64,000 nucleotides of DNA. Source: an uncultured Spartobacteria bacterium. Its GTDB lineage: Bacteria > Verrucomicrobiota > Verrucomicrobiia > Chthoniobacterales > Chthoniobacteraceae. Under the pieces are notes generated by a model that was given only the letters and a program-made list of their open reading frames with translations, had not been told where the DNA came from and searched no databases. The position numbers were made by a program, and so were the translations under genes. This document shows, piece after piece, positions 11,601 to 24,777 of this stretch. Numbering within the stretch: the first letter of the stretch is position 1; the number at the start of each line of letters is the position of its first letter. The DNA is taken from positions 1-64,000 of the forward strand of contig CAIXGS010000013.1 of assembly GCA_903919125.1 (NCBI GenBank). The letters are read 5' to 3'.

Positions 11601-14600
11601 GCGCCGTGGTTAAGGCCGGTTCCGGCGACCTGACGCTCAATAATTCAAACACCTTTAGTGGTGGATTTACCCTCTCAAGCGGCGCGGTGCGTCTGGGAAA
11701 CAATGCGGCCCTAGGTTCTGGAACTCTTTACCTTTTTGGGGGAACTCTCTCGGCGGCTGATGCGCTCAACGCCCGCACCATCTCAAATCCTGTCATTGCG
11801 GCCGGTAGCGCTGAATTGGGAGATCTCACTCAAAGTGCTGCTTTGACGCTCTCCGGCTCCGTCTCACTTTCTGGTAGCGTCGAGTGGAACGTGCAGAGTC
11901 CTGTGCTCATTTCAAACGGAGTGACGGCTTTGGGTGCTTTTGGATTAACCAAAGTGGGCGATTCCACGCTTACCCTTGGCGGATCGAGCGGGTACGGTGG
12001 CGGGACTACAATCGTGGCGGGATCGCTTGTTCTTTTGCCGGGTGCTGGTGGGTTATCAACCAGTGGTTCGATTACTTCCACGGGCGGCGTTTTCGATCTT
12101 GGTGGTAACCTGCAAACCACTTTGGGAGCGATCACTTTCGTCGGTGGGACGGTTCAAAACGGGACACTCATTGCGAGTGGAACCGCGTTTATTGGGCAAG
12201 GCGGGCGTGTGAGCGCGGTCCTCGGGGGAACGCAGGGCCTCGTGAAGTCCTCGTCGGCCACACTCACGCTTAGCGGCGCCAACTCGTATACCGGCGGAAC
12301 CATTTTGAACGAGGGATCGCTTGTACTGAGTGGCGGGAGTGATCGTTTGAGTCCCTCAGGGGCAATTTCACTGCTGGGCGGAGTGCTCGACCTTGGTGGG
12401 AACAACCAAACGACTTCCGGTGCGATTACGATTTCCGGTGTGCAGATCCAAAACGGCACGCTGACCGCCACAGGGAGCGCCTTTAATGCGCAATCGGGAA
12501 CTGTGTCCGCTATTTTAGCCGGAACCCAAGGATTAACCAAGACTAGCGGCGGGGTTCTGACCCTCTTGAGTGCCAATCAATACACTGGAGCGACGAGCGT
12601 TGCCGCCGGTTCATTGACGATTTCTGGGAGCGGTTCTTTGTCGCAGAGCACTGCGGTCTCCGTGGCCGCCGGCGCGACCCTTAACTATTTCCCAACGAAT
12701 CCGAGGACACTCAACGTGGGTAGCCTCTCGTTAGCAAGCGGCGCCGTCCTCGGAATGAATTGGGGTGATGGGATTGCAGCGAGTGGAGTGGCGTCTGTGA
12801 GTGGTTCGCTTACGTTGGGACTCTCTGGGGCGTTTGTGAGTGGCCAAGCCTACACGCTGTTCACTGGCGGTGCGGGGAGCTCTCTCAACGGCGCCCATTA
12901 CACGCTGACTGGGACGGCTGCTTATGATTACTCGCTGTCGTTGAGCGCGGGCGAAGTTCGGATCATTCCAACGACCCCAACCGATGTGCTCTCCGCTTAC
13001 TGGGTCGGCGGCCGTTCTTCCTCCAGTCCGAAGGTATGGAATGCGGAAAACTGGGCGAGGGACGCCGCCGCTTCTACGCTCACGGCACGCACGCCGACGT
13101 CGTTGTCTACAGTCTTTCTTTCTGCAGAAACGGCTTTAGCGGCTAATCAGGTCGGGATGACATTGGGCGCCAATACGAACATCGTGGGTTTGGTGGCGTC
13201 CTCGGTTTCGACGATGAGCCTGCTGGATGACGGTTACATTTTGCAGGTCGGTACTGGCGGCATAGCCGTGAACGTGGGCGGCGGGAGTCTTTCGTTAGCG
13301 GGTGCGATTGATCTCGCTGGAAACCAGACTTGGAGCAATCGCGGAGCGGGGCAACTCATGGTGAGCGGCAGCGTCAATATCGGAAGCAACACGCTTCAGC
13401 TTTCCGGTAGTAGCCCGTTAGTGGTATCTGGAACAGTGACAGGTACCGGGGGTGTGCTTGCGAATAACACGAGCACGCTGACGCTCCGTGGAGCAAACAG
13501 CTACACGGGGGGGACCACTGTGAGTGCGGGTTCTGTCCTGCTCTTGGGCGGGGACAACCGGCTCTCCACAAGCGGCTCGATCACTGCGGCGGGCGGTGTG
13601 GTAGATCTCGGTGGTAATCGCCAGAGTACGACCGGAGCGATCACGATTTCCGGCGGTTTGATCCAAAATGGAACTTTGACAGCTCTCTCCAGCGCCTTTG
13701 ACGTTCGCGGCGGGGGTGCCAGCGCCGTACTTGCCGGTTCTCAAGCGTTGGTGAAAGCCACGGCTGCCTCCATGACGCTCAGTGGAGCAAACACTTATTC
13801 AGGTGGAACCACTCTCCAAGAGGGTTTGTTGAATCTCAATAACGGAGGAAACGCCTCGAGTTCCGCCATAGGGACTGGAACCCTGACGATTCTTGGTGGC
13901 ACTTTTGGGAACACGTCCGGTTCCAGCGTCACTTTGGCGACTCAAAACACGCAGGTTTGGAATGGTGACTTTGCTTTTGCTGGCACTAGCGATCTGAACT
14001 TGGGGACGGGCGCGGTGACTTTGGGTAATAATCGCACCGTGACCGTCAACACGGGCACCCTGACGGTCGGTGGGTTGGTTAGCGGCGGCACCTTTGGCAT
14101 TACGAAGGCTGGCCCGGGGACGCTCGTTCTTGCCGGTGGCTATTCTTTCAGCGGTCCTACGCAAGTTACGGGTGGCCGCTTGGACATCGGAAGCGGCGTT
14201 ACTATCGGGACTGGCACGATTTCTCTGAGCGATGATGCGCTCTTGGGGTTCCAATTGGGGGCGGATCTGACCATTCCCAACAAGATTATTGGAGGTCGTG
14301 TGTTGACCCTCAACCCGCTCTACAATGTGTTTTGGGATGGAGGCACCACCGCGCAGGTGGACTTGATTGTACCCGATGGAGTGAATCAGACGGTCAACCC
14401 CGGTACGCTCGGGTGGTATGTCACCGTCACCGTCGTTGAGGGCGGTTCCCTAGCACCCTCAACTTCCGGTTCGTCCTCGCTGACCAACAAAATTGTGCTC
14501 TCAGGGACGACTTCCTCGGGTTCCGAGATTTCCCTGAGAGAAGACCAGTCCCTGACGCTTACAGGGACTTTGTCCGGCACCGGCACTCTCGCCAAGAGTG

Positions 14601-17290
14601 GTGCGGGCGTCCTGACTCTGAGCGGAACCAACACGTTTACTGGGGGATCGGAGGTCCGTAGCGGCACTTTGGAAATTCTGAGTTCGCACGCGCTAGGCGA
14701 CGGCAGTGTCGAGGTAGGCACGGGTGCCATTCTTGCGGTGAAGGCGGGTTCTCTTGGAAGTTCCGTATCCATCTCCAATGCGATTTCTGGAACAGGTGAA
14801 CTTCTCAAGAGCGGTAGCGGTTTGGTGGTGGTGACAGGTTCCTCTAATACGTTCACGGGCGGGACCAATATCGGCGCGGGCACTCTCGAGATCCGCCAGA
14901 GTGGGGCGCTGGGCAGCGGATTGGTGAGCATCGGCACCTCGGCTTCTTTAAATGTCAATGTGGGAGCCAACGAAACGGTGGTTTTGAGCAACAACATTTC
15001 TGGGGATGGCTATTTGATCAAAGAGTCCAAGGGGAAACTCTCTGTGACATCCTCCGGAAACAAGTTTTTGGGCACGCGCCTCATGGACGGTGTTCTGGAC
15101 GTATCCTCCGCCACCGCGCTCGGCAGCAAGTTGGCACTGAACGGTGGCACCTTGAGCTCTTCAGTGGACCTCAATTTCTCCATCCCTGTGACCGTGGGCG
15201 GAACCATGACCGTATCGCCCGGAACTGGGAGCGTGACCGAGATGAGCGGAGGGTTCTCTGGTAATGGCGTTTTGACGAAGACGGGGGCGGGAGTGTTGAA
15301 AATTAGCGGCACCCTTTCCGTCGACTCTGGAGTTTTAGAAGTGGTGAACGCGACCAGTGGCTCCGGCGGTCTCGAAAAAGCAGGTTCGGGGACGCTGCTT
15401 TGGTCTGGAAGCGGTACCGTGCAAGGCTCCGCTCAGGTGGCTGCGGGTACTTTGCAAATGTCAGGGGATCAGGTCCTGCGGGATGTAACCAAACTGGGCG
15501 AGGGAAAAATGGAGGTCTTGGGCAACTCGAAGTTCTTGGGAGTCACCACGCTTCAATCGGGTACTATTGTGGTGAACCGCCAGAGTGCACTGGCAGAGGT
15601 GCCGTTATTGGTGGTGGGAGGCAAGGACTCTGAGGGTTCGTTCCTCGATGTAACCGCGATTTCAAGCGGGCTTGTCGTCGGTGACAATATCAACCAGACC
15701 CTCAAGGGCCGTGGTACTATTCTTGGAAGCGTTTCTATTGAGGCTCAAGGTTATCTCGCTCCGGGTAATTCCATCGGCACACTGACCATGGGCTCTCTTT
15801 CCTTTGCCCCTGGTTCCATTTACGAAGCGGAGTACCTCGTTTCTGGGGGAACTGGAACAAGCGATTTGCTTCGGGCTCAAGCGGCGGCTGGTGGGACGGG
15901 GTTAGCAATTCTCACGGGCGGATATGTGCTTCCCAAAGCGGTCTCTCGCCTCACGGATTTTAGCGCGCACTCCTTCTCGATTATGAGCGCGGGCGGCTCT
16001 TTAGGGTTGGTCGGGCGCTTTGACGGGGTAGTTCAAACTGCTGCGATCGGCGCGTCGCTCGTCTATTTGGACGGGAGTGCGAGCGATTCGTCGCTGACTT
16101 CTGGCACGGTAAACGCGCTCAAAATGGTTCTGCAGCGGGTGCCCTACGCAGTGCTCGGTGGTGGAGGTGTGGCTAGTAGTGTTGGTGCAATCCTCGATGC
16201 AAACCTTGCCACGACGGACGCCAATTTGTCCGCCATGCTCGACGGACTGGACGCACTCCAAAGCGTCCCTCAAGTCCAAGCCGTTCTCGGGCGCGTCAAC
16301 CCCCGTGCGTACTCGGAAGTTTACTCCCTCGCAGTGAGTCACCTGCAGGATGTGCAAAAAACGCTCTCAGACCGCCTCATCTCGCTGGGTGCCGCCTCAG
16401 TTCGTTCGTCCTCGTTTGGAGGACCGTCGTTAGCACAAGAGGGGGAAATGCAATGGAGCGCTTGGTCGAATGTTTACGGAAGTTCCGGGGTCCGCAAGGC
16501 AGAGTCGCCCTCCATCGGTGGTTCAACGTGGAACACTTTTGGGAATGTAACGGCTGTGGAACGCAATTTTGGTTCTCTGACTTTCGGCTTCTTTGGCGCG
16601 GTGGGAACGGCCTCCAATCAGATCAATTCGCCAGAATCGACGATTTCCTCCGAAAGTTGGCATACGGGTCTGTATTCAAGTCTGCCTTTGAGCGACCGGA
16701 TCTTTTTCGATTCCTCGTTGCTCTACGGTCAAGCGGACAACATCGTCAAGCGGTCCCTTCCGTATCTTGCTTCGGCAGCGGGTGCCCGTGGGGAGGTTCA
16801 CACAGAGGAATGGCTCCTTCAACTGGGCTTCGGGGCGCAACTGGCTCCTAAAGAGACAGACTGGAGTGCGGTATTGAGTGCGGGATTCTCGGGCGGGGCT
16901 GTCCGTATGGGCGAGGTGCGGGAAACGGGCGTTGGCGGATTGGGGGTAGAGGCGGCGGGGTTCCGCAACTGGATGGCGATGGGGCGCGTGGGATTTGAGG
17001 TGGCGAAGGATTGGCAGGTGCACGGCATTCCCCTGCGCACGGCAGCAAGCGTCTCATGGACGTACGACTTCGACGCGGATCCCCGATCCCTTGGGGTTCA
17101 CCTACAGGGTGTTCCGGGCAATGAGTGGACGATCACCAGCGAGGAGCGTTCCGCAAATGCGTTCCATGCGGGCGTATCCTTGGAAGTGGGACTGAGTGAG
17201 CGGCGCACCCTGAAGGTCTACGCCGAGGAGGAGCTATTGCGAAGCAGCAGCGTGTTCCATGGTGGTGTGAATTTCCTGATCGGCTTCTAG
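2..17290 (+). CDS. Giant PATR-repeat autotransporter adhesin, 5' end outside the window
   Basis: The frame is open from base 2, so signal peptide and start lie to the left; 5,762 residues are visible. The passenger consists of about 35 near-identical 98-residue units (landmarks GTVSAILAGTQ, ALTLSGVNSYTGGTT, GGVLDLGGN, GGVVQNGTL), then more diverged beta-helix repeats and three copies of a second module. Near 15.7-15.8 kb it has LAPGNSIGTLT, a typical signature ahead of autotransporter barrels. The last ~280 residues, from about 16,440, alternate polar and aromatic beta strands and end in Phe, as expected of an outer-membrane beta-barrel that exports the passenger (type Va secretion). It is rich in Gly, Ser and Thr and has no visible catalytic motif, so a surface adhesin or structural fibre is likely. 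Family assignment is firm; ligand and function are unknown. A glycan-synthesis operon follows 125 bases downstream. Confidence 0.93.
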   Translation, partial: AFAAQSGAVSAILAGTQSLVKDGAGALTLSGVNSYNGGTTVNDGSLLLSSGNDRLSTSGSITTTGGVLDLGGNGQTTLGTITFAGGIVQNGTLTATGTAYVAQSGTVSAILAGTQSLVKSGTGALTLSGVNSYMGGTTLNDGSLLLSGGNDRLSTSGSITTTGGVLDLGGNSQTTLGTVTFAGGIVQNGTFTTTGTAYVAQSGTVSAILAGTQSLVKDGTGALTLGGVNSYTGGTTLNDGSLLLSGGDNRLSTSGSITTTGGVLDLGGNGQTTLGTITFSGGAVQNGILTATGTAFVAQTGTVSAALAGTQGLVKSGTGALTLSGVSSYTGGTTVSAGSLILAGGDDRLSLSGAITTTGGVLDLGGNGQSSSGTLTFAGGVVQNGTLTATGTAFAAQSGTVSAVLAGAQGLVKSGTGTLSLSGVNSYTGGTTVSNGTLELIGGDDRLSTSGAITTTGGVLDLGGNSQTTLGTITFAGGLVQNGTFISTGTAFAAQSGTVSAILAGTQGFVKSGTGALTLSGVNSYIGGTTLNDGSLLLSGGDDRLSTSGSITTTGGVLDLSGNGQTTLGTITFAGGVVQNGTFISTGTAFAAQSGTVSAILAGTQSLVKDGSGALTLSGVNSYTGGTTVNGGSLLLSGGNDRLSTSGSITTTGGVLDLGGNGQTTLGTVTFSGGVVQNGTLTATGKAFAAQSGAVSAILAGTQSLVKDGAGALTLSGVNSYNGGTTVNDGSLLLSGGNDRLSTSGSITTTGGVLDLGGKGQTTLGTVTFAGGVVQNGTLTATGTAYVAQSGTVSAILAGTQSLVKSGTGALTLSGVNSYNGGTTVNDGSLLLSGGDNRLSTSGSITTTGGVLDLGGNSQTTLGTVTFAGGVVQNGTLTATGTAYVAQSGTVSAILAGTQSLVKDGTGALTLSGVNSYTGGTTVSVGSLLLSGGDDRLSTSGSITTSGGVLDLGGNSQTTLGTITFVGGEVQNGTLTATGTAFVAQAGTVSAALSGTQGFVKSGTGALTLSGVSTYTGGTTVSAGSLILAGGDDRLSLSGAITTTGGVLDFGGSGQSSSGTITFAGGVVQSGTLTATGTAFAAQSGTVSAVLAGAQGLVKSGTGTLSLSGVNSYTGGTTVSNGTLELVGGDDRLSTSGAITTIGGVLDLGGNSQTTLGTITFAGGLVQNGTFISTGTAFAAQSGTVSAILAGTQSLVKSGTGALTLSGVNSYIGGTTLNDGSLLLSGGDDRLSTNGSITTTGGVLDLGGKGQTTLGTVTFGGGVVQNGTLTATGTAFAAQSGTVSAILAGTQSLVKDGSGALTLSGVNSYTGGTTLNSGSLLLSGGNDRLSTSGSITTTGGVLDLGGNGQTTLGTITFAGGVVQNGTFISTGTAYVAQSGTVSAVVAGTQSLVKDGAGALTLSGVNSYTGGTTVNDGSLLLSSGNNRLSTSGSITTTGGVLDLGGNGQTTLGTITFAGGIVQNGTLTATGTAYVAQSGTVSAILGGTQSLVKDGTGALTLSGANSYTGGTTVNDGSLLLSGGDDRLSTSGSITTTGGVLDLGGISQTTLGTVTFAGGVVQNGTLTATGTAYVAQSGTVSAVLAGTQSLVKDGAGALTLSGVNSYTGGTTVSAGSLLLFGGDNRLSILGDITTLGGVLDLGGNSQLTIGTITFAGGVVQNGTLMGTGTTYVVQSGTVSAEIIGQQGVLKVGTGTASLSGANTYLGGTTVFDGTLQLVGGDDRLSTSGSIKTNGGVLDLGGNTQSTSAVITLAGGVVQNGTLTATGTAFVAQSGTVSAVLAGAQGLIKSGAGAVTLSGVNVFTGGTRVDSGSLVFSGGDDRLSLNGAITTTGGVLELGGNSQSTSGTITFAGGVVQNGTLTATGTAFVAQSGTVSAVLAGTQGLVKDGTDAVTLSGTNTYSGGTTLQSGRLNLNVSGTALDSSIGTGLLVINGGTLANTSGSSVTLATNNQQIWSGDFTFAAGNALNLGSGTVTLAASLAVTVETGTLSVGGIIGGSGLGLTKSGDGNLVLSALSTYDGGTKVTAGILTLASGADTLSSLGEITVFGGILDLSGATQSTSGTITFAGGLVQNGTLTATGTAIAAQSGTVSAILAGTQSLVKDGAGALTLSGVNLYTGGTTLNGGSLLLSGGDDRLSTSGSITTTGGVLDLGGNSQTTLGTVTFAGGVVQNGTLTASGTAYVVQSGTVSAILAGTQGLVKDGTGALTLSGVNSYAGGTTLNGGSLLLSGGNDRLSTSGSITTTGGVLDLGGNGQTTLGTITFAGGIVQNGTLTATGTAYVAQSGTVSAILGGTQSLVKDGAGALTLSGVNSYSGGTTLNDGSLLLSGGNDRLSVSGSITTSGGVLDLGGNSQTTLGTITFTGGVVQNGTLTATGTAYVAQSGTVSAILAGTQRLVKDGAGALTLSGVNSYTGGTTLNDGSLLLSGGDDRLSTSGSITTTGGVLDLGGNSQTTLGTITFAGGVVQNGTLTAAGTAFVAQSGTVSAILAGTQSLVKSGAGALTLSGVNSYTGGTTVSDGSLLLSGGDDRLSTSGSLTTSGGVLDLGGSGQTTLGTITFAGGVVQNGTLIATGTAFVAQSGTVSAILAGTQSLVKDGVGALTLSGLNSYTGGTTLISGSLVLAGGDDRLSTSGSITTTGGVLDLGGNSQTTLGTITFAGGIVQNGTLTATGTAYVAQSGTVSAILAGTQSLVKNGAGALTLSGVNSYTGGTTLNDGSLVLAGGADRLSTSGSITTTGGVLDLGGNGQTTLGTVTFAGGIVQSGTLTATGTAFVAQSGTVSAILAGTQGLVKDGVGALTLSGVNSYTGGTALNDGSLLLLGGDDRLSTGGSITTTGGVLDLGGNSQTTLGTVTFAGGVIQNGTLTATGTAFVAQSGTVSAILAGTQSLVKDGAGALTLSGVNSYNGGTTVNDGSLLLSGGVDRLSTSGSITTSGGVLDLGGNGQTTLGTVTFAGGVVQNGTLTATGTAFVAQSGTVSAILAGTQSLVKDGAGVLSLSGLNSYTGRTTVNDGSLLLSGGNDRLSTSGSITTTGGVLDLGGNAQTTLGTITFAGGVVQNGTLTATGTAYAAQSGTVSAILAGTQSLVKGGVGALTLSGVNSYTGGTTVSDGSLLLSGGDDRLSTSGSITTSGGVLDLSGNSQTTLGTIIFAGGVAQNGTLIATGTAYVAQSGTVSAILAGTQSLVKGGPGALTLSGVNSYTGGTTVSDGSLLLSGGNDRLSTSGSITTSGGVLDLGGNSQTTLGTITFSGGIVQNGTLIATGTAYVAQSGTVSAILAGTQSLVKGGTGALTLSGVNSFTGGTTVSDGSLLLAGGDDRLSTSASITTTGGVLDLGGNSQTTLGTITFAGGIVQNGTLTATGTAYVAQSGTLSAILAGTQSLVKDGVGALTLSGVNSYTGGTSVNDGSLLLAGGNNRLSTSGSLSSIGGVLDLGGNSQTMLGTITFAGGIVQNGTLTATGTAFVAQSGTVSAILAGTQSLVKDGTGALTLSGVNTFTGGLTLQQGLLNLNASGTALGSPLGLGTLTINGGSLGNSSGSSVTLATNNAQIWNGDFSFAGSNDLNLGVGSVTLGSSVTVTAESGSLTIGGVIAGSGFALTKSGASTLVLTANNTYDGGTNIGQGLLVLSGGSDRLSTAAPITAIGGTLDLGGNSQATSGTITFTGGTIQNGTLISTGTAFVAQSGVANAVLAGTQGLVKNGSGTFSLIGANTFVGPVNISQGTVALFGGAALADTVALTIGTSGTLALNADETIATLSGSGLLSLGTYKLTTNSSESSVFSGALSGSGAVEKEGVGSLTFSGNSTDFTGVLRVLGGTAMLGAGSPLGNGTVEISNLGAISLISSGSLGAISGAGKVLLSGATLTLSGSQNTTLNGVISGLGAVVKAGSGDLTLNNSNTFSGGFTLSSGAVRLGNNAALGSGTLYLFGGTLSAADALNARTISNPVIAAGSAELGDLTQSAALTLSGSVSLSGSVEWNVQSPVLISNGVTALGAFGLTKVGDSTLTLGGSSGYGGGTTIVAGSLVLLPGAGGLSTSGSITSTGGVFDLGGNLQTTLGAITFVGGTVQNGTLIASGTAFIGQGGRVSAVLGGTQGLVKSSSATLTLSGANSYTGGTILNEGSLVLSGGSDRLSPSGAISLLGGVLDLGGNNQTTSGAITISGVQIQNGTLTATGSAFNAQSGTVSAILAGTQGLTKTSGGVLTLLSANQYTGATSVAAGSLTISGSGSLSQSTAVSVAAGATLNYFPTNPRTLNVGSLSLASGAVLGMNWGDGIAASGVASVSGSLTLGLSGAFVSGQAYTLFTGGAGSSLNGAHYTLTGTAAYDYSLSLSAGEVRIIPTTPTDVLSAYWVGGRSSSSPKVWNAENWARDAAASTLTARTPTSLSTVFLSAETALAANQVGMTLGANTNIVGLVASSVSTMSLLDDGYILQVGTGGIAVNVGGGSLSLAGAIDLAGNQTWSNRGAGQLMVSGSVNIGSNTLQLSGSSPLVVSGTVTGTGGVLANNTSTLTLRGANSYTGGTTVSAGSVLLLGGDNRLSTSGSITAAGGVVDLGGNRQSTTGAITISGGLIQNGTLTALSSAFDVRGGGASAVLAGSQALVKATAASMTLSGANTYSGGTTLQEGLLNLNNGGNASSSAIGTGTLTILGGTFGNTSGSSVTLATQNTQVWNGDFAFAGTSDLNLGTGAVTLGNNRTVTVNTGTLTVGGLVSGGTFGITKAGPGTLVLAGGYSFSGPTQVTGGRLDIGSGVTIGTGTISLSDDALLGFQLGADLTIPNKIIGGRVLTLNPLYNVFWDGGTTAQVDLIVPDGVNQTVNPGTLGWYVTVTVVEGGSLAPSTSGSSSLTNKIVLSGTTSSGSEISLREDQSLTLTGTLSGTGTLAKSGAGVLTLSGTNTFTGGSEVRSGTLEILSSHALGDGSVEVGTGAILAVKAGSLGSSVSISNAISGTGELLKSGSGLVVVTGSSNTFTGGTNIGAGTLEIRQSGALGSGLVSIGTSASLNVNVGANETVVLSNNISGDGYLIKESKGKLSVTSSGNKFLGTRLMDGVLDVSSATALGSKLALNGGTLSSSVDLNFSIPVTVGGTMTVSPGTGSVTEMSGGFSGNGVLTKTGAGVLKISGTLSVDSGVLEVVNATSGSGGLEKAGSGTLLWSGSGTVQGSAQVAAGTLQMSGDQVLRDVTKLGEGKMEVLGNSKFLGVTTLQSGTIVVNRQSALAEVPLLVVGGKDSEGSFLDVTAISSGLVVGDNINQTLKGRGTILGSVSIEAQGYLAPGNSIGTLTMGSLSFAPGSIYEAEYLVSGGTGTSDLLRAQAAAGGTGLAILTGGYVLPKAVSRLTDFSAHSFSIMSAGGSLGLVGRFDGVVQTAAIGASLVYLDGSASDSSLTSGTVNALKMVLQRVPYAVLGGGGVASSVGAILDANLATTDANLSAMLDGLDALQSVPQVQAVLGRVNPRAYSEVYSLAVSHLQDVQKTLSDRLISLGAASVRSSSFGGPSLAQEGEMQWSAWSNVYGSSGVRKAESPSIGGSTWNTFGNVTAVERNFGSLTFGFFGAVGTASNQINSPESTISSESWHTGLYSSLPLSDRIFFDSSLLYGQADNIVKRSLPYLASAAGARGEVHTEEWLLQLGFGAQLAPKETDWSAVLSAGFSGGAVRMGEVRETGVGGLGVEAAGFRNWMAMGRVGFEVAKDWQVHGIPLRTAASVSWTYDFDADPRSLGVHLQGVPGNEWTITSEERSANAFHAGVSLEVGLSERRTLKVYAEEELLRSSSVFHGGVNFLIGF
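26..4141 (+). repeat. Higher-order duplication: two 2,058-bp blocks of seven units
   Basis: Bases 1-129 are identical to bases 2,059-2,187, a shift of 2,058 = 7 x 294. The unit types repeat in the same order with this shift. The unusual SAALAGTQ unit with the LSLSGAITT variant at about 908 recurs at 2,966, and the AVLAGAQGLV unit at 1,202 recurs at 3,260. A seven-unit block was therefore duplicated in tandem. Confidence 0.85.
5708..6058 (+). repeat. Second passenger module, copy 1
   Basis: A ~117-residue module (LNLN...GTALDSS..GTGLLVINGG, then SGSSVTLATNN, then a DFTFA..N.LNLGSG segment and STYDGGT) interrupts the 98-residue array. It recurs at about 10,469 and 13,814. Confidence 0.85.
6059..10468 (+). 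repeat. Second block of 294-bp tandem repeats in the adhesin gene
   Basis: About 15 further 98-codon units follow, with ILAGTQ landmarks at about 6,258, 6,552, 6,846 and onward to 10,374 in 294-base steps. A 137-bp stretch at 6,728-6,864 is identical to 4,319-4,455 in the first block. The spacing of that pair is not a multiple of the unit, so conversion has crossed the intervening module. Confidence 0.93.
10469..10816 (+). repeat. Second passenger module, copy 2
   Basis: Same module order as at 5,708: LNLNASGTALGSPLG, TLTINGGSLGN, SSGSSVTLATNN, DFSFAGSNDLNLG, NTYDGGT. It closes the second 98-residue array. Confidence 0.85.
13814..14163 (+). repeat. Second passenger module, copy 3
   Basis: The most diverged copy of the module (LNLNNGGNASSSAIGTG, TSGSSVTLATQN, DFAFAGTSDLNLGTG). 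It lies among single-copy beta-helix repeats nearer the barrel. Confidence 0.8.
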
Positions 17291-17415
17291 AAGACGATGC
17301 TTGAAATTGGTTTGGGGCGGAATGGGTAGGGGAAAACCCTTAGGGATTTGAGGGGGTGAGTCCTGATTCGGGGCTCTTTCTTTTGTGGCACAGTGAGCGT
17401 GTGTCTTCCCTTATT

Positions 17416-18885
17416 ATGAACGCGCACCCCGACTATCTCGCTCCACAAATTTCTAGAAAGAAAGTGCTTGTGGTTGATGACCATTCTGTGGTTCGGCGGG
17501 GCTTGGTCACGCTAATCAATGAGCAGGACGACTTGGATGTGGTCGGAGATGCTGGCAACGACGCGGATGCCCTCTTTTTGTTTCGGCAAAACGTACCGGA
17601 TTTATTGCTGGTGGATTGGTCGCTCAAACAGCGTGATTCGGTGGGTTTGATTGTGTCGCTACTGCGTGAGAAGCCGGAATTAAAGGTACTCGTGCTTTCG
17701 ATCCACGATGAAATGACGCATGCTGATTTGGCGTTGGAGGCGGGCGCGCGCGGTTACATTATGAAGAGGGAGGCGGCCGAGAAGATTGTCGATGGAATCC
17801 GGGTAGTTCTGAGAGGGGATTTTTTTCTGAGTGAGCGGGCCTTGAGCGGGCTAAGGGAAACCGCGCTTAAGAGGGTCTCTGGGGGGAGTGTGGTTGGCGC
17901 AGGTGCCATTGTTAGTGAGGGTCCACACAAAGAGCCGTTTGCTGGGTGGGCGGTATCGGTGGTTGTGCCGGTGTTTAATTCGAGAGAAACCTTACCCCGC
18001 TTATGCGAGCAGCTCGTGTGTGAATTGGGCGACTTGGAGCAATTGCAGATCATTCTCGTGGATGATGGGAGCACAGATGGCTCCTCGCAGGTGTGCGCCG
18101 AGATGCACGCGCGCTATCCCTCCCATGTCGAGTTTCTGCTGCTAGCGCGCAATTTTGGGGAGCACAATGCCGTGCTTGCCGGTGTAAAACACGCTACAGG
18201 GGATTACTGCGTGGTGATGGATGACGATCTCCAGAATCCGCCGCAGGAAGTAAAAATGCTTCTGCGTCAGGCGGCTCTCGGATTTGATTTAGTTTATTCC
18301 CGCTACAGCAAGCGGCACCACCCTCTTTACCGGCGATTGGGGAGCATGCTGCAAAATTGGACGGCTTGCCTGGTCTTGGGAAAACCGAGGGAGTTGTATC
18401 TTTCGAGCTTTAAGGCTTTTTCGGCCAAGGTGATCCGCGAGGTGCGCAGTTACAACGGGCCGGAGCCTTATCTAGATGCCATATTGCTACGAGCAACGGC
18501 GAACATTGCCACGGTGGAGTGTCGTCATCAGGCGCGGGGCGGCGGGCGCTCGGGTTACACGTGGCGGAAATTAATAGGCCTTTGGTTGCGTCTCTTTCTC
18601 GGGTTTTCGGTGTGGCCCGTACGTTTTGTGGCGCTGCTAGGGGTCGGCGTTTGTGGTTGCGGAGCTTTTTTAGAAAGCGCCAACCCCGCCGCTTCATTGG
18701 TTTGGTTGGAACGTGCGTGCGTTGTTTTTCTGTTGGCGCTGATTGGAGAATATGTTGGGCGAATGCATCTCGTTCTCAACGCTGCCCCGCAATTTGTCGT
18801 CAAACGCCGTGGGCTGCGTGCAGCCGTTAACCTAGGCGGGGTGCGCCGGGAAATGGAAGTCGACGGGCGTTATGAGACGATTTGA
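17416..18885 (+). CDS. Receiver-domain / GT2 glycosyltransferase fusion, membrane-anchored
   Basis: 489 residues in one uninterrupted frame. Residues ~15-135 form a CheY-like receiver with all switch residues visible: D21/D22, phospho-acceptor D67 (LLVDWSL), Ser in VLSIHDE and Lys in YIMK. Where a NarL-type regulator would have its HTH, a linker leads at about residue 175 into a GT2 domain (VSVVVPVFN, LVDDGSTDG, MDDDLQNPP). Two C-terminal membrane segments and an IGEYVGR motif match the GtrB/ArnC/DPM1 family, which transfers a nucleotide-activated sugar to undecaprenyl phosphate. ATG 17416 was chosen because the receiver fold starts soon after; in-frame GTGs lie at 17,356 and 17,401. The stop overlaps the next start by 14 bases. 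Each half is recognised clearly; phosphorylation control of lipid-linked sugar synthesis is inferred. Confidence 0.88.
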   Translation: MNAHPDYLAPQISRKKVLVVDDHSVVRRGLVTLINEQDDLDVVGDAGNDADALFLFRQNVPDLLLVDWSLKQRDSVGLIVSLLREKPELKVLVLSIHDEMTHADLALEAGARGYIMKREAAEKIVDGIRVVLRGDFFLSERALSGLRETALKRVSGGSVVGAGAIVSEGPHKEPFAGWAVSVVVPVFNSRETLPRLCEQLVCELGDLEQLQIILVDDGSTDGSSQVCAEMHARYPSHVEFLLLARNFGEHNAVLAGVKHATGDYCVVMDDDLQNPPQEVKMLLRQAALGFDLVYSRYSKRHHPLYRRLGSMLQNWTACLVLGKPRELYLSSFKAFSAKVIREVRSYNGPEPYLDAILLRATANIATVECRHQARGGGRSGYTWRKLIGLWLRLFLGFSVWPVRFVALLGVGVCGCGAFLESANPAASLVWLERACVVFLLALIGEYVGRMHLVLNAAPQFVVKRRGLRAAVNLGGVRREMEVDGRYETI

Positions 18886-20680
18886 ACCAGCTATTTTCGC
18901 TGGGTTAGTCTTCGTTTTGGCTTGGGTGATTTTCGTCCCGACCCTCGGCTACCCCATGGTCTTTGATGACGAGATTTATCTCGTGGAAAATCCCATATTC
19001 AAAAACGCGTCCAATTTTTTAGCGATTTTTCGGGATTTTAAGAGCGTCGCCAATTTGGCCGCTCAAAGTGGTCTGGACGGGGATCTATCGACCAACTTTC
19101 TCATGCGTCCTCTCACGTATGGGACCTTTCATCTCAACTACAGACTGGGAGGTTTGGCCCCCTCAGGCTATCGCGCCGTAAATATCCTGATTCACTGTGC
19201 CAACGCTTTTTTAGTGTGGTGGTTGGCCTCCCTCTTTTTGCGAGGCTGCCGCTTTGCGCTTTTGCCCCATAATGCGCCTTTGCGTCTCATGCCAGCCTTT
19301 GCGGGTTTGCTGTTTTTCGTTCACCCCCTCCAATTGGAGTCCGTCGTGTACGTTATCCAGCGGGCCACTTCGCTGTGTACCTTTTTTTACCTCGGAAGCC
19401 TGGTTTGTCACTTCGAGGCGAACGCAAGAGGCAGTGCCGGTTGGCGCCTGGTGTCCGTTGTCTGTGTCGTAGCGTCCATGCTTTCGAAGGAAAGCGGTGT
19501 GACTGCGCCTGTTTTGGCGGTGATTTTGGATGTGATGATGTTTGGCGTGCGTCCCTTGCGTGCGTTTTGGCGGGCGCGCTGGCTGTTACTTCTGCTTCCA
19601 ATGCTTCCGTTGCTATTGATGGCGATTGGCCGCGCACGTTCAGGCGGTATGGACGGAATGGCGGTCCTTAATATCGCCCATAGTGAAGCGGATACTGCTT
19701 ATGCACTGCATTATACGATGACCCAGCCTTTGGTGTGGTTGCGTTATCTTGCGCTATTCTTATGGCCTGCTGGACTGAATATTGACCCGTTTATTGCCCC
19801 AGTCTTAAGCCCGCGAGAACCTAGGTTTTGGGGTTCCGTGCTGGTGGTCCTGGGTGTATTTTGCACTGCCATTTTGCTTTGGATTCGGGCGCACACCCGG
19901 TTTCTGGGGCAAATTGCCGTGCTAGGACTTGTCTGGTTCGCATTCACCATAGCACCGGATTCTTCTGTGGTGCCGCTTCCGGATCTAATGGCCGAGCACC
20001 GGACTTATCTGCCCTCGGTGGGTGTGTTCTTGGTGGCGGCGGGATTGCTCTGCGCTTGGCCTGTGGGTGCGAAATGGACAGTGGTTTTCGGAGCGACAGC
20101 GCTTTTGAGTTCCACCGCAGCGACGCTCGAGCGCTCCGGTGTGTGGTCGTCCCCAGAGCGTATGTGGAGGGATGTTTGCGATAAAAGTCCGCAGAAGCCT
20201 CGGCCGTGGATCAATCTGTGTGCGGCGTATTTTGAAGCTGGAAAACTAGAGCTAGCGGAGCAGGCTTGTTTAAATTCTATCAAGGCTCAGCCCACGGTGC
20301 CCGCTTTCTCGAACCTCGCGGTTCTGTACCGCGCTCGTAACCTCCCTGAGAAAGCGCTTCAGAGCGCGAAAGAGGGGTTGCAACTGCGCCCCTCGGGATA
20401 CGACCACCTCTTGTTGATTCAACTCGGGGAGGTGTGCTGTGAATTGAGACGCTGGCATGAGGCGATATCCGCCTTTACTGAGGTTCTCGAAATGTACCCC
20501 TCTCTCTTCCAACCAAGACGTATGCTTGGATTCTGTTATCTCGAGATAGGGAATGTCGACGCCGCTGTGGCAACCTTCCAAGTCGGTCTGCAGCATCATC
20601 CTGGCAACCCTGAATTACTCGCTTCTATCGCGCGCGCTCAAAGTAGTCCCCCTCCGATGCGCCTGCGCCTAGGCCGCTAA
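18872..20680 (+). CDS. TMTC-like multi-pass membrane glycosyltransferase with C-terminal TPRs
   Basis: 602 residues. An N-terminal membrane segment (~8-26) is followed by FDDE (D32, D33, E34) in the first outer loop, as in GT-C enzymes. The segment MRPLTYGTFHLNYRLGG and following helices resemble the bacterial relatives of TMTC O-mannosyltransferases. Some ten hydrophobic helices run to about residue 420. The C-terminal third holds TPR-like helices (RPWINLCAAYFEAGKLELAE, NLAVLYRARNLPEKALQSA). GT-C enzymes of this kind move a sugar from a polyprenyl-phosphate donor to protein or lipid outside the cytoplasm. The gene just upstream would make such a donor, and its stop lies 14 bases inside this gene, suggesting coupling. 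The acceptor is unknown. Confidence 0.78.
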   Translation: MRRFEPAIFAGLVFVLAWVIFVPTLGYPMVFDDEIYLVENPIFKNASNFLAIFRDFKSVANLAAQSGLDGDLSTNFLMRPLTYGTFHLNYRLGGLAPSGYRAVNILIHCANAFLVWWLASLFLRGCRFALLPHNAPLRLMPAFAGLLFFVHPLQLESVVYVIQRATSLCTFFYLGSLVCHFEANARGSAGWRLVSVVCVVASMLSKESGVTAPVLAVILDVMMFGVRPLRAFWRARWLLLLLPMLPLLLMAIGRARSGGMDGMAVLNIAHSEADTAYALHYTMTQPLVWLRYLALFLWPAGLNIDPFIAPVLSPREPRFWGSVLVVLGVFCTAILLWIRAHTRFLGQIAVLGLVWFAFTIAPDSSVVPLPDLMAEHRTYLPSVGVFLVAAGLLCAWPVGAKWTVVFGATALLSSTAATLERSGVWSSPERMWRDVCDKSPQKPRPWINLCAAYFEAGKLELAEQACLNSIKAQPTVPAFSNLAVLYRARNLPEKALQSAKEGLQLRPSGYDHLLLIQLGEVCCELRRWHEAISAFTEVLEMYPSLFQPRRMLGFCYLEIGNVDAAVATFQVGLQHHPGNPELLASIARAQSSPPPMRLRLGR

Positions 20681-20684
20681 AGTC

Positions 20685-21725
20685 ATGCATAAACCCAGCT
20701 CCTCCCTCGGCGAAGCGTCTCTTGCATCAGACCAACTCCTGCAGCCCTTTTTTTCGGGTAAAAAAGTTCTCGTCACAGGTTCAAAGGGATTTATCGGCCG
20801 TGCCCTGTGTCTCAGGCTGAGGCGTTTGGGCGCTTTCGTTGTGGGGGTGGATCTTGTCGCAATGCCAAGTTGCGCTGGTGAAATGGAGGGTGAGTTCCAG
20901 GCGGACTGCTCAAACCAGGAGTTTCTGGCAAGGGTTCTGCCCGGGGTGGAGGTGGTTTTTAACCTGGCCGGCCGCTGCGGGCATTTGGAGTCTATGCAGG
21001 ATCCACTTGGTGATTTGGCTGCGAACCTCACCGCTCCTCTTGCCGTGCTGGTTGCCTGCAGGCGTTGGGCGCCCTCCGCTCATTTGCTCTACGCTGGAAC
21101 GCGGCAGATTTACGGACGTGTGCAGCGTCTGCCTGTGGCCGAAGATCACCCCCTTGCGCCGCTGGACGCTAACGGTATACACAAAATGGCTGCGGAGCAA
21201 CACTGTCTGCTTTTCGCAAGGCACTTCGGTCTGTGTACCACGGTGTTGCGTCTCACCAATACGTACGGTCCTGAAATGCGCCGAGGTGGTTTTGGACAGA
21301 CCTTTTTGGGAGAATGGTTTCGTCGTGCGCTTTGCGGTGAGGAGATTGTGGTGTACGGGGAAGGCACTCAGGTGAGGGATTTGAATTATGTGGACGATGT
21401 GGTGGAGGCTTTTTTGCGCGTGGCGCAGGCAGGAAGAAAGACCGCCGGAGAGGTGTTTAATCTTGGAGGGAGGGAGGTGTCAGCGTTGTGGGAATTGGCG
21501 TGGAAAATCGCGAAATTTTCGGGCTCGAAGGTGGGGGTGCGTAGGGAGCCATTTCCAGCAAGCCTGAGTCAGATTGACATCGGTGATTATCAGGGAGACT
21601 TCGGCAAGATTCGTGGTGCGGTGGGGTGGGAGCCGGTAGTCGGTGTCGAGGCGGGGTTGAGGAAGACTTGGGAGGCGATGGTTGCGGAGGTCGAGGCGGG
21701 AAGGGGGAGGGTGTATGGACGTTGA
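20685..21725 (+). CDS. NAD-dependent epimerase/dehydratase, nucleotide-sugar enzyme
   Basis: 346 residues of the extended SDR family. The Rossmann motif is VLVTGSKGFIG (~26-36), NAD contacts include FNLAGR, and the sugar-binding part has LRLTNTYGPE and VYGEGTQVRDLNYVDDV. The usual catalytic YxxxK reads NGIHK, with Asn at 163 and Lys at 167. Tyr is therefore missing, though the rest of the fold is intact; I recall an NGINK-type subgroup with the same change. It starts 4 bases after the preceding stop and its end overlaps the aminotransferase start by 11 bases. It likely supplies or modifies an NDP-sugar for the glycosyltransferases alongside; the exact reaction cannot be told. Confidence 0.85.
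   Translation: MHKPSSSLGEASLASDQLLQPFFSGKKVLVTGSKGFIGRALCLRLRRLGAFVVGVDLVAMPSCAGEMEGEFQADCSNQEFLARVLPGVEVVFNLAGRCGHLESMQDPLGDLAANLTAPLAVLVACRRWAPSAHLLYAGTRQIYGRVQRLPVAEDHPLAPLDANGIHKMAAEQHCLLFARHFGLCTTVLRLTNTYGPEMRRGGFGQTFLGEWFRRALCGEEIVVYGEGTQVRDLNYVDDVVEAFLRVAQAGRKTAGEVFNLGGREVSALWELAWKIAKFSGSKVGVRREPFPASLSQIDIGDYQGDFGKIRGAVGWEPVVGVEAGLRKTWEAMVAEVEAGRGRVYGR
21701..21710 (+). promoter_or_regulatory. Strong Shine-Dalgarno that fixes the aminotransferase start
   Basis: AAGGGGGAGG lies 4 bases before ATG 21715 inside the end of the epimerase gene. It supports this start over the upstream in-frame ATG at 21,682, which has no such site. Confidence 0.7.
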
Positions 21726-22851
21726 GATCCCTCTCACGAAGCTTTGGCTGCAAGTTCCTGAAGAGCAGGAGTTGGTGGCGTTGGCTCTTCAACGGGTGCT
21801 GGCATCGGGTTCGTATATTTTAGGGCGTGAAGTGGCGGCCTTTGAGGAGGAGTTTTCGGCTTATTTAGGGGGAGTGTGTGGCGTCGGTGTGGCGTCCGGC
21901 ACTGATGCCATTATGCTGGGGCTGTTGGCTGGAGGTGTGGGGGTTGGGGATGAAGTTCTAGTGCCTGCCTTCGGTTCAGGTGCGACGGTGACTGGGGTGC
22001 TTGCGGCGGGGGCTACGCCGGTGTTGGCTGAGGTGGGCTGGGAGTTTGGATTAGATTTGGAGCGCCTTAGCGAAGCCCTAACGCCCCGAACACGGGCTAT
22101 TGTGGTGGTTCATCTTTTTGGGCGCATGGACGAGATGACTCCAATTCTTGCCTTTGCGAGAGCGCATCAACTTTGGGTTGTGGAGGATTGTGCCCAGGCC
22201 CATGGTGCGGGCTATTGGAGTGAGCCTCTCCAACGATGGTGCAAGGCGGGCACTATGGGCGACGTGGGCGCTTTTAGCTTTTATCCCACCAAAAATCTCG
22301 GCGGTATGGGAGACGGCGGCTTTTGCTGTACGGCTTGCCCCGTAGTTCTGGAACGCCTCCGGGAATTGCGTCAATACGGATGGCGTGTCCGAGATGACTC
22401 TGGCTCTGCGGGGCGCAATAGCCGTCTCGATGAGGTGCAAGCAGCCGTGTTGAGGGTTGCGTTGCCAAAATTGGACGCTTGGAATGCACGGCGGACCGTC
22501 ATTGCGGCTTATTATCAAGAGGGACTCAGGGAGTTTTGCTCGCCAGATATGATTCTTCCGCTGCCGGATGATTCGCGTCGGAAGTCTGTATGGCACCTCT
22601 TTGTGGTGCGTGCACGCTTGAGGCAGAGATTGACTGGCGGGTTGACTGGGCGCGGCATAGGATTTGGAATTCATTACCCCAAGGCGCTTTCCCAGCAGAC
22701 GGCCTACCAGCCGTTTGGCGCGGGAAGAGTGTTTCCCGTGGCGCAGCAGTTGGCAGCGGAAGTGTTAAGCTTGCCTCTGTCGCCTTTTCTAGGTGAGTCC
22801 TGCCGCAGGAAAGTTCTGGCGGTAGTAGCTGAGTTTTGTCGCAAAATATGA
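21715..22851 (+). CDS. DegT/DnrJ/EryC1/StrS family sugar aminotransferase
   Basis: 378 residues, the usual family length. Landmarks are GREVAAFEEEFSAYLG, the cofactor-binding GVASGTDAIMLGLLA, VEDCAQAHGA and the PLP lysine region FSFYPTKN with Lys at residue 193. Such enzymes put an amino group from glutamate onto a keto-sugar nucleotide in the cytoplasm. Paired with the epimerase/dehydratase just upstream (11-base overlap), it suggests that the cluster makes an amino-deoxy sugar. Its stop overlaps the histidine kinase start as ATGA. The specific sugar cannot be read from sequence. Confidence 0.9.
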   Translation: MDVEIPLTKLWLQVPEEQELVALALQRVLASGSYILGREVAAFEEEFSAYLGGVCGVGVASGTDAIMLGLLAGGVGVGDEVLVPAFGSGATVTGVLAAGATPVLAEVGWEFGLDLERLSEALTPRTRAIVVVHLFGRMDEMTPILAFARAHQLWVVEDCAQAHGAGYWSEPLQRWCKAGTMGDVGAFSFYPTKNLGGMGDGGFCCTACPVVLERLRELRQYGWRVRDDSGSAGRNSRLDEVQAAVLRVALPKLDAWNARRTVIAAYYQEGLREFCSPDMILPLPDDSRRKSVWHLFVVRARLRQRLTGGLTGRGIGFGIHYPKALSQQTAYQPFGAGRVFPVAQQLAAEVLSLPLSPFLGESCRRKVLAVVAEFCRKI

Positions 22852-24092
22852 ATCAACGCGTTGTCTTCGGATTTTCCCTCACGGTGCTTATTTTGGTGGT
22901 CATTGGTTGGGTTTCCTACCAAAGCATTCTTGAGTTTCGTTCCACGGCACAAGTGGTGTCGCGCTCTAATCACATGGCAGATTTGCGCGAGAACTTACTG
23001 ACGGACGTCGTGAGCGCCGAAAGCGAGACGCGCGGGTATGTGATCACTCGGCGCTCCGAATATCTTAACTTGTACAAGGAGGCGCTGGGTGAGGTTCAAA
23101 ATGGCATGAATAAATTGCGCGCCAGAAGGGATCTGAGCATTTCACCCCAGTTGGTGGATCGGCTTCTTGAGCTTATCGAACTGCGCATGGAGCGTTTGCG
23201 CCTGACAATTGAGGAAAGGGATAAAACGAATCTGGAAGCTCTTGATGGTGTCCTCGGGCCGGGAAAAAAGCTGATGGATGAAATTCGTACAATTTCTGGA
23301 ACTCTGGAGACTGAGGAGCGGAACAGACTGGAGCATTTGGATCTGCGGCTTAAAATAATTTCTGCGCGGAGCACGTGGATCATTGGCGCGGGGAGCGTGT
23401 GTGCTGTATTGTTTCATTTAATGAGCACCCTGGCTCTCAGTCGTGCCATTTCCAATAGGGAACGTTTGGAGCGTTCGCTGCTGGAGATTAGCGAGCGCGA
23501 ACAGCGGCGAATCGGACAAGATTTGCACGACGGGCTGTGTCAGCAGCTTACAGGAATTTCGCTCATGATTAGCAGCTTTCAGCGCAATCTGTCGCCTGAT
23601 GCGGAGGCGGAGCAAAGGCAGATTGTGCGCCTCATAAACGGGTGTATTGAAGAAGCCCGTTTAGTCACTCGTGGGCTGCACCCAGTACCCAACGAACCGG
23701 CTGGTCTAGTGGTGGGACTCAGGGAGTTGGTGGATAAAGTCCATTCTGAAACGGCGATTAGTTGTGAACTCTTAATTACTGGCGAAGTCTATATTGTGGA
23801 TCTTGCTATTTCCTCGAATCTTTATCGGATCGCGCAGGAGGCGGTTCGTAACGCGATAAAGCATTCCGGTGCAAAGACTATCCGAGTGCATTTGCTTATG
23901 TCTGTTGGTAATATTAATCTGACGATAGAAGACGATGGTAGTGGTTTTCTTCTGGATAGCTCTCGCAGGGGGTTGGGATTGGAGATTATGCGGTATCGTG
24001 CGACATCCATCGGTGGACGTTTGTCTGTGAAATGTAACCAGCCAACAGGAACGCTGGTGGACATTCGTGTCGCGAATCCCGTTACCCAATAA
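22848..24092 (+). CDS. CHASE3-type sensor histidine kinase, HisKA_3 (NarX-like) class
   Basis: 414 residues. An N-terminal membrane segment (~5-25) is followed by a mostly helical outer domain with TDVVSAESETRGYVITR, typical of CHASE3. A second membrane segment lies near residue 180. The dimerisation domain REQRRIGQDLHDGLCQQLTG carries the phospho-accepting His, and the ATPase domain has NLYRIAQEAVRNAIKHS (N box) and EDDGSGF/RGLGLEIM (G boxes). ATG 22848 overlaps the preceding stop as ATGA. It should phosphorylate the NarL-type regulator 25 bases downstream and could also serve the receiver-glycosyltransferase fusion at the head of the operon; the latter is inference. Confidence 0.92.
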   Translation: MNQRVVFGFSLTVLILVVIGWVSYQSILEFRSTAQVVSRSNHMADLRENLLTDVVSAESETRGYVITRRSEYLNLYKEALGEVQNGMNKLRARRDLSISPQLVDRLLELIELRMERLRLTIEERDKTNLEALDGVLGPGKKLMDEIRTISGTLETEERNRLEHLDLRLKIISARSTWIIGAGSVCAVLFHLMSTLALSRAISNRERLERSLLEISEREQRRIGQDLHDGLCQQLTGISLMISSFQRNLSPDAEAEQRQIVRLINGCIEEARLVTRGLHPVPNEPAGLVVGLRELVDKVHSETAISCELLITGEVYIVDLAISSNLYRIAQEAVRNAIKHSGAKTIRVHLLMSVGNINLTIEDDGSGFLLDSSRRGLGLEIMRYRATSIGGRLSVKCNQPTGTLVDIRVANPVTQ

Positions 24093-24117: not shown

Positions 24118-24777
24118 ATGAATGCGCTTCGTTATCGGATCTTACTTGTGGATGACCATCCGATTGTGCGTCAGGGGATAAGGCTTCTTCTCGCGGGGGA
24201 GCAGAGGTTTGAGGTGTGCGCCGAGGCCTCCAGTTGGCCAGAGGCTTTGGATGCCGTTGCCGCTTGCACTCCGGACGCTGTGGTTCTGGATATTTCCCTG
24301 AGAGAGCGGATGGGCTTGCTCCTTATTCAGGATATGGTGGCCATCGTGCCGCACTTGAGAGTGCTGATTCTCTCCATGCATGATGAATTGGTTTATGCTG
24401 AACGCGCTATTGTCGCTGGCGCTCACGGGTACGTCATGAAAACCGATGCTGCCCAAAATGTCTTGGAGGCGCTGGATCGAGTTCTCGCAGGGGGCATTTA
24501 TCTGGGAACACGCGTGGCTGGTCTGCTGCTTGAACGAGCCCTCCATCCTTCTAAGGGAGCGACGCGTTCTGGCATCGAATCTCTGACAAACCGCGAATTG
24601 GAGGTGCTTTCGCTCATCGGCACGGGGCTGAGTTCCGACTCCATAGCTACCCGCCTTTCGTTGAGTGTGAAGACCATTGAAGCACACCGCGGCAATATCC
24701 GCAGCAAGCTCGGCTTGGAAACAGGAGAAAGCCTCTTGGAGCTTGCTCTGCGCTACACCCGCGACTTGCGCGGTTAA
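24118..24777 (+). CDS. NarL/FixJ-family response regulator
   Basis: 219 residues. The receiver has D12/D13, phospho-acceptor D58 (AVVLDISL), Ser in LILSMHDE and Lys in GYVMK. The C-terminal LuxR-type HTH contains LTNRELEVLSLIGTGLSS and LSVKTIEAHRGNIRSKLG. ATG 24118 gives the standard N-terminus; an upstream GTG at 24,067 would overlap the kinase. Kinase and regulator form an ordinary two-component pair. The receiver resembles that of the glycosyltransferase fusion, including the rare HDE after the switch Ser, so the two may share an ancestor. Targets are unknown. Confidence 0.95.
   Translation: MNALRYRILLVDDHPIVRQGIRLLLAGEQRFEVCAEASSWPEALDAVAACTPDAVVLDISLRERMGLLLIQDMVAIVPHLRVLILSMHDELVYAERAIVAGAHGYVMKTDAAQNVLEALDRVLAGGIYLGTRVAGLLLERALHPSKGATRSGIESLTNRELEVLSLIGTGLSSDSIATRLSLSVKTIEAHRGNIRSKLGLETGESLLELALRYTRDLRG

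Follow-up and report, generated by a model that had tools for sequence, protein, structure and literature searches.

A NarL-type receiver joined to an ArnC/GtrB-type glycosyltransferase and inherited with a sensor kinase in two verrucomicrobial lineages

Background

Fusions of a receiver domain to an enzyme, including fusions to a glycosyltransferase, are already known. A census of archaeal two-component systems describes receivers fused to a BcsA-like glycosyltransferase (MTH_548 and its relatives), which occur in Methanobacteriaceae only, and receiver-enzyme fusions of this sort are usually limited to one family or genus (PMC5847659). The gene described here, from a freshwater verrucomicrobial genome, resembles the MTH_548-type fusions in that a receiver is covalently joined to a family 2 glycosyltransferase and in its narrow distribution (PMC5847659). 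What differs is the class of enzyme, the bacterial host and the co-inherited kinase: the MTH_548-type enzyme is BcsA-like (PF13641) and archaeal, whereas the present one is a bacterial enzyme of the ArnC/GtrB polyprenyl-phosphate kind that is passed on together with a kinase and a regulator of its own. In the open-access literature, we came across no earlier description of a receiver attached to a polyprenyl-phosphate glycosyltransferase.

Two-component control of envelope sugar modification, as in the arn operons, is usually understood as transcriptional. An earlier reading of the 64,000-nucleotide stretch of DNA that contains the gene (the window), referred to as the original prediction in this text, proposed that here the enzyme itself is under phosphorelay control. 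We examined this proposal by domain, structure and genome searches.

Results and discussion

Architecture of the fusion gene

The fusion gene occupies positions 17416–18885 on the plus strand of the window. It is a single ATG-started frame of 489 codons (489 aa) that runs to a stop at 18885 without an internal stop. Two Pfam matches were found by hmmscan on this one chain, Response_reg (PF00072, aa 17–128, E 4e-19) and Glycos_transf_2 (PF00535, aa 181–299, E 1e-26). The original prediction that one open frame joins a receiver to a family 2 glycosyltransferase thus held, with the coordinates right. Neither a frameshift nor a stop lies between the domains; the open frame is uninterrupted and recurs in 10 genomes. 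With an intact receiver, including the phospho-acceptor and the switch residues, an enzyme on the same chain and a fusion conserved in 10 genomes, the protein has the sequence marks of a putative enzymatic-output response regulator.

The receiver spans aa 15–130 (17458–17805, plus strand) and carries the acidic pair D21/D22, the phospho-acceptor D67, S95, Y114 and K117. All of these are kept in 10/10 fused orthologues, apart from position 114, which is Y or F. The complete CheY-like receiver that had been predicted, with D67 and its switch residues, was therefore borne out, and a degenerate receiver can be ruled out because the phosphorylation residues are kept. The best family models are NarL-type and match aa 14–145, beyond the receiver proper. 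The domain is thus of the same subtype as in NarL/FixJ-type response regulators, but no GerE/LuxR helix-turn-helix expected of such regulators was detected in the fusion chain by hmmscan; the glycosyltransferase stands in its place, as the original prediction had it.

Between the two halves lies a variable linker (aa 131–177, 17806–17946, plus strand). An AlphaFold2 model of the fusion based on 8 sequences shows a canonical receiver of alternating beta strands and alpha helices (pLDDT about 78–92), low confidence in the linker at aa 161–173, a reasonable N-terminal half of the enzyme and an unreliable C-terminal half; receiver-enzyme contacts are not reliable from this model.

One claim was not supported. 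The fused receiver had been said to resemble that of the regulator at 24.1 kb, but the two are only 36% identical, while another receiver from the same genome (contig C85) reaches 41%, and they do not pair in the tree. A recent duplication of the 24.1-kb receiver is supported by neither the identity nor the tree. Since the fused receiver is not closest to that of the operon regulator, a shared recognition by the kinase cannot be read from the two sequences.

The enzyme half

The glycosyltransferase domain (aa 178–412, 17947–18651, plus strand) contains the acidic motifs VDDGS (from aa 215) and MDDDLQNPP (aa 268–276). Two membrane helices lie at about aa 398–422 and 428–452 (18607–18771, plus strand) with a GEYVGR motif at the end, in line with a hydropathy plot that has two hydrophobic stretches centred near aa 400–413 and 433–445. 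Among solved structures, ArnC is the best match (aa 180–463, E about 1e-37); weaker matches are an archaeal dolichol-phosphate mannose synthase (2e-17) and GtrB (3e-16). PF00535 scores 94 bits on the enzyme half against 27 bits for the BcsA-like PF13641, and the closest solved relatives are ArnC, not BcsA. A family 2 glycosyltransferase with acidic motifs, C-terminal membrane helices and a full-length alignment to solved members has the marks of a polyprenyl-phosphate glycosyltransferase. By sequence and fold class, the enzyme half is thus of the ArnC/GtrB type, and both the class and the two membrane helices named in the original prediction agree with the ArnC structure alignment and the hydropathy.

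The enzyme half aligns from end to end, both membrane helices included, with ArnC, the undecaprenyl-phosphate 4-deoxy-4-formamido-L-arabinose transferase. Unlike ArnC, the fusion enzyme carries a receiver and has a shorter loop between the helices, and its score with the NCBIfam ArnC equivalog model (NF007986) is 134.5 bits, far below the curated cut-off of 529. GtrB (sll0501; structures 5ekp, 9nyc and others) shares the fold class and the two C-terminal membrane helices, but it is more distant than ArnC and has no receiver.

Distribution and selection

We searched several hundred distinct genomes (989 counted with repeats), all of this phylum; for large sets, the top candidates per genome were scored. 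This search revealed the fusion in 10 genomes, seven in the genus of the window and three in one genus of a family of another class of the phylum (f33), so absence from all relatives was not what we found. In the six other genomes of the same genus, a single alignment spans both domains at 59–73% identity (G010 is cut by the contig end), and in the three f33 genomes it does so at 44–47%. QQND01000027.1 (Verrucomicrobia MAG) and CANJZW010000048.1 (Chthoniobacteraceae MAG) are among the carrier records. Samples of the phylum and of the class to which the f33 genome G175 belongs yielded no further fused form among the top candidates scored per genome, which is not proof of absence. Other phyla were covered only by a pattern scan and a plasmid search, and the latter showed no fused form in plasmids. 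One search, run at 1e-70, just missed the receiver-less enzyme of G250 (2e-70) and hence covers strong full-length matches only.

In the receiver tree, the ten fused receivers cluster together (97/90). Among 40 relatives in the enzyme tree, the fused enzymes and that of the LacPavin MAG (locus L027) likewise share one cluster (100/99). LacPavin has a naturally split version of the protein: a lone receiver (L027, 9914–10384), whose acid pair is D-E instead of D-D, immediately precedes a receiver-less enzyme that belongs to the fused clade. Because this enzyme falls within the fused clade beside f33, the split may represent a later fission, with the receiver diverged or replaced, or else two fusions occurred; the long branch of the LacPavin receiver leaves both histories possible.

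Selection was estimated from the f33 loci L060 and L069, the one pair with unsaturated silent sites. The dN/dS values of receiver and enzyme were practically equal, at 0.113 and 0.117, against 0.66 in the linker, so selection holds the receiver about as firmly as it does the enzyme. Only a few independent events stand behind the ten genomes with the fusion. The same arrangement with the same gene partners in two lineages is more than would be expected by chance.

Gene neighbourhood

In the window, the fusion is the first of six overlapping or closely spaced genes on the same strand. Its stop is overlapped by the start of a multi-span membrane protein with C-terminal TPR repeats (18872–20680), followed by an NAD-dependent epimerase/dehydratase (20685–21725; PF01370, E 3e-47) and a DegT/DnrJ sugar aminotransferase (21715–22851; PF01041, E 2e-85) that is ArnB/PseC-like, although it scores below the cut-offs of the PseC and ArnB models. 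The last two genes are a sensor kinase with CHASE3, HisKA_3 and HATPase_c domains (22848–24092; alternative start TTG 22836) and a NarL-type regulator with a receiver and a LuxR/GerE helix-turn-helix (24118–24777; alternative start GTG 24067), all on the plus strand. A kinase in the same gene run as the fusion had been expected and is indeed there. The aminotransferase, the epimerase/dehydratase and the membrane protein together resemble an arn-like set.

This gene order is also found in G001, G003, G004 and G007. At the f33 locus L060, the order is kinase, regulator, fusion and TPR membrane protein, with the epimerase and aminotransferase on the opposite strand, and LacPavin has the kinase and regulator followed by the lone receiver, the receiver-less enzyme and the TPR membrane protein. 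The regulator adjoins the kinase in all three arrangements, both genes lying after the aminotransferase in the genus and before the fusion or receiver in f33 and LacPavin. The G007 kinase (L025) is represented by two overlapping frames (15435–16310 and 16283–16699), through either a frameshift or an assembly error. Immediately before the operon of the window, and on its strand, lies the gene of a giant repeat protein with an autotransporter-like C-terminus (26–17290). It has at least 5754 aa, being cut by the contig start, and was not seen at that place in relatives.

In the TPR membrane protein, D32 and D33 are invariant across orthologues. One orthologue gave a weak match to TMTC_DUF1736 (E 0.009, 16 bits against a cut-off of 27). 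The AlphaFold2 model has a confidence under 50 over most membrane spans, and a profile search against solved structures returned TPR proteins only, among the matches listed. The invariant DD and the TMTC match make the protein a candidate GT-C transferase of the TMTC kind.

Two f33 loci, L069 (about 1035–1487) and L061 (minus strand), encode an HPr-like protein directly before the fusion (PF00381, E 9e-13 at L069); it was not seen at L060. In both, the histidine of the usual GLHxR active site is replaced by aspartate (GLDLR), and the protein is possibly a non-phosphorylatable partner of the fusion. Upstream of the HPr-like frame of L061, and thus just upstream of the fusion region, lies a frame with a PEP-CTERM-like tail, VPEPGTASLLGLVGLAFLVRHLRRRF, whose product may be a glycosylated surface target.

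Co-occurrence of the kinase with the fused receiver

A full-length orthologue of the kinase was found in 8 of the 10 fusion genomes and in 0 of 19 comparison genomes, of which five belong to the same genus and three to family f33 (Fisher's test, about 1e-5, uncorrected for relatedness). The two fusion genomes without a match (G006 and G010) are ones whose fusion contig ends early. In G072, the kinase and regulator are present, but on a different contig from the fusion. G013, from the same family as the window, has the TPR protein, a receiver-less enzyme and the DegT gene, with neither such a kinase nor such a regulator within 20 kb; seven other receiver-less loci likewise had neither in the stretch examined. 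This pattern indicates that it is the receiver, and not the sugar genes, that the kinase and regulator accompany.

A candidate operator

A palindrome close to AGGGnAAAACCCT lies 69–93 bp upstream of the fusion start in 7/7 loci of the genus; in the window it reads TAGGGGAAAACCCTTA (17327–17342). There is a similar palindrome 38 bp before the lone receiver of LacPavin. For 7 of the 8 loci, a score as good came up in no more than 1 of 300 dinucleotide shuffles. The conserved position and the shuffle test suggest that the palindrome is likely the binding site of the operon's NarL-type regulator. The window palindrome is the sole exact match in its genome. Genome-wide, no enrichment indicative of a larger regulon was seen (5 hits with at most one mismatch versus 19 for the reversed control). 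At the f33 loci, the palindrome is weaker, and shuffles often did as well. At L060 (G175), palindromes of the kind CTCGGGGAAATCCCCGAG / CTCAGGGATTTCCCCGAGG stand before the kinase and between the regulator and the fusion; they are a possible f33 form of the operator, not significant against shuffles.

A model for the circuit and its alternatives

Taken as a whole, these observations are best explained by a kinase-controlled response regulator that has a lipid-sugar enzyme as its output, plus a transcriptional arm, an explanation that we hold with moderate confidence. The CHASE3 domain of the kinase would sense an envelope signal. The kinase would then phosphorylate the NarL-type regulator, which would set the transcription of the operon, probably by binding the palindrome before the fusion. 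It would also phosphorylate D67 of the fused receiver and thereby change the activity of the enzyme, its oligomer state or both. On the cytoplasmic side, the fused enzyme would move a sugar from its nucleotide to undecaprenyl phosphate. This is probably a 4-amino sugar, because the operon has an epimerase/dehydratase and an ArnB/PseC-like aminotransferase that could make it. The neighbouring TPR membrane protein may use the lipid-linked sugar outside the cell, passing it to an acceptor. We lean slightly towards the more specific view that the kinase switches the lipid-linked-sugar synthase directly and also drives operon transcription via the second receiver, which would make a two-armed circuit with fast enzymatic and slow genetic control of surface glycosylation.

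The original prediction had placed enzyme control after transcription. This is supported by the joint inheritance of kinase and receiver and by the purifying selection that acts on the receiver, although both the phosphorylation and a resulting change in activity are inferred. With a DNA-binding regulator encoded at the locus and a candidate operator upstream of the fusion, control probably acts on transcription as well as after translation.

Other roles for the receiver have to be weighed against this. ArnC/GtrB enzymes function as oligomers, and the long, variable linker would suit a tethered module, so the receiver might serve assembly or location only, by dimerising or by docking the enzyme to a partner such as the kinase or the TPR protein, without phosphorylation setting the rate. 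We regard this as unlikely, as every fused orthologue retains the phosphorylation residues and the kinase is inherited along with the fusion. It is also conceivable that the fused receiver acts on the kinase and regulator, as a phosphate sink or as a timing element, while the enzyme is incidental and constitutively active. In the genus and in f33, a single kinase does stand beside two receivers, and in LacPavin beside a regulator plus a lone receiver. A sink, however, needs no covalent link to an enzyme, and yet two distant genera have retained the fusion and the lone receiver of LacPavin stands directly before the same enzyme, which makes this reading improbable.

The operon kinase might, alternatively, serve the 24.1-kb regulator only, the fused receiver being phosphorylated by a kinase elsewhere or by acetyl phosphate. 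The low identity between the operon's two receivers and the closer receiver elsewhere in the genome fit such a division, but the kinase orthologue tracks the fusion (8/10 vs 0/19), and we give this possibility slightly less weight still. Finally, the source genomes are draft metagenome assemblies and the LacPavin parts are separate genes, as might be the case if the fusion were an assembly error or a decaying chimera. The open frame recurs in 10 assemblies, which rules out an assembly artefact, and with both domains under purifying selection, we consider this last explanation extremely improbable.

Conclusions

The spread of the fusion seen here is narrow, in a phylum with few genetic models. 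Conserved together with its own kinase, it nevertheless offers a compact, testable case of an enzyme that is itself the response regulator, and the naturally fused, split (LacPavin) and receiver-less (G013) versions allow a direct test of what the receiver contributes. That the joined gene and a sensor kinase of its own have stayed together in two distant lineages suggests that these bacteria control the sugar decoration of their surface by switching the enzyme itself.
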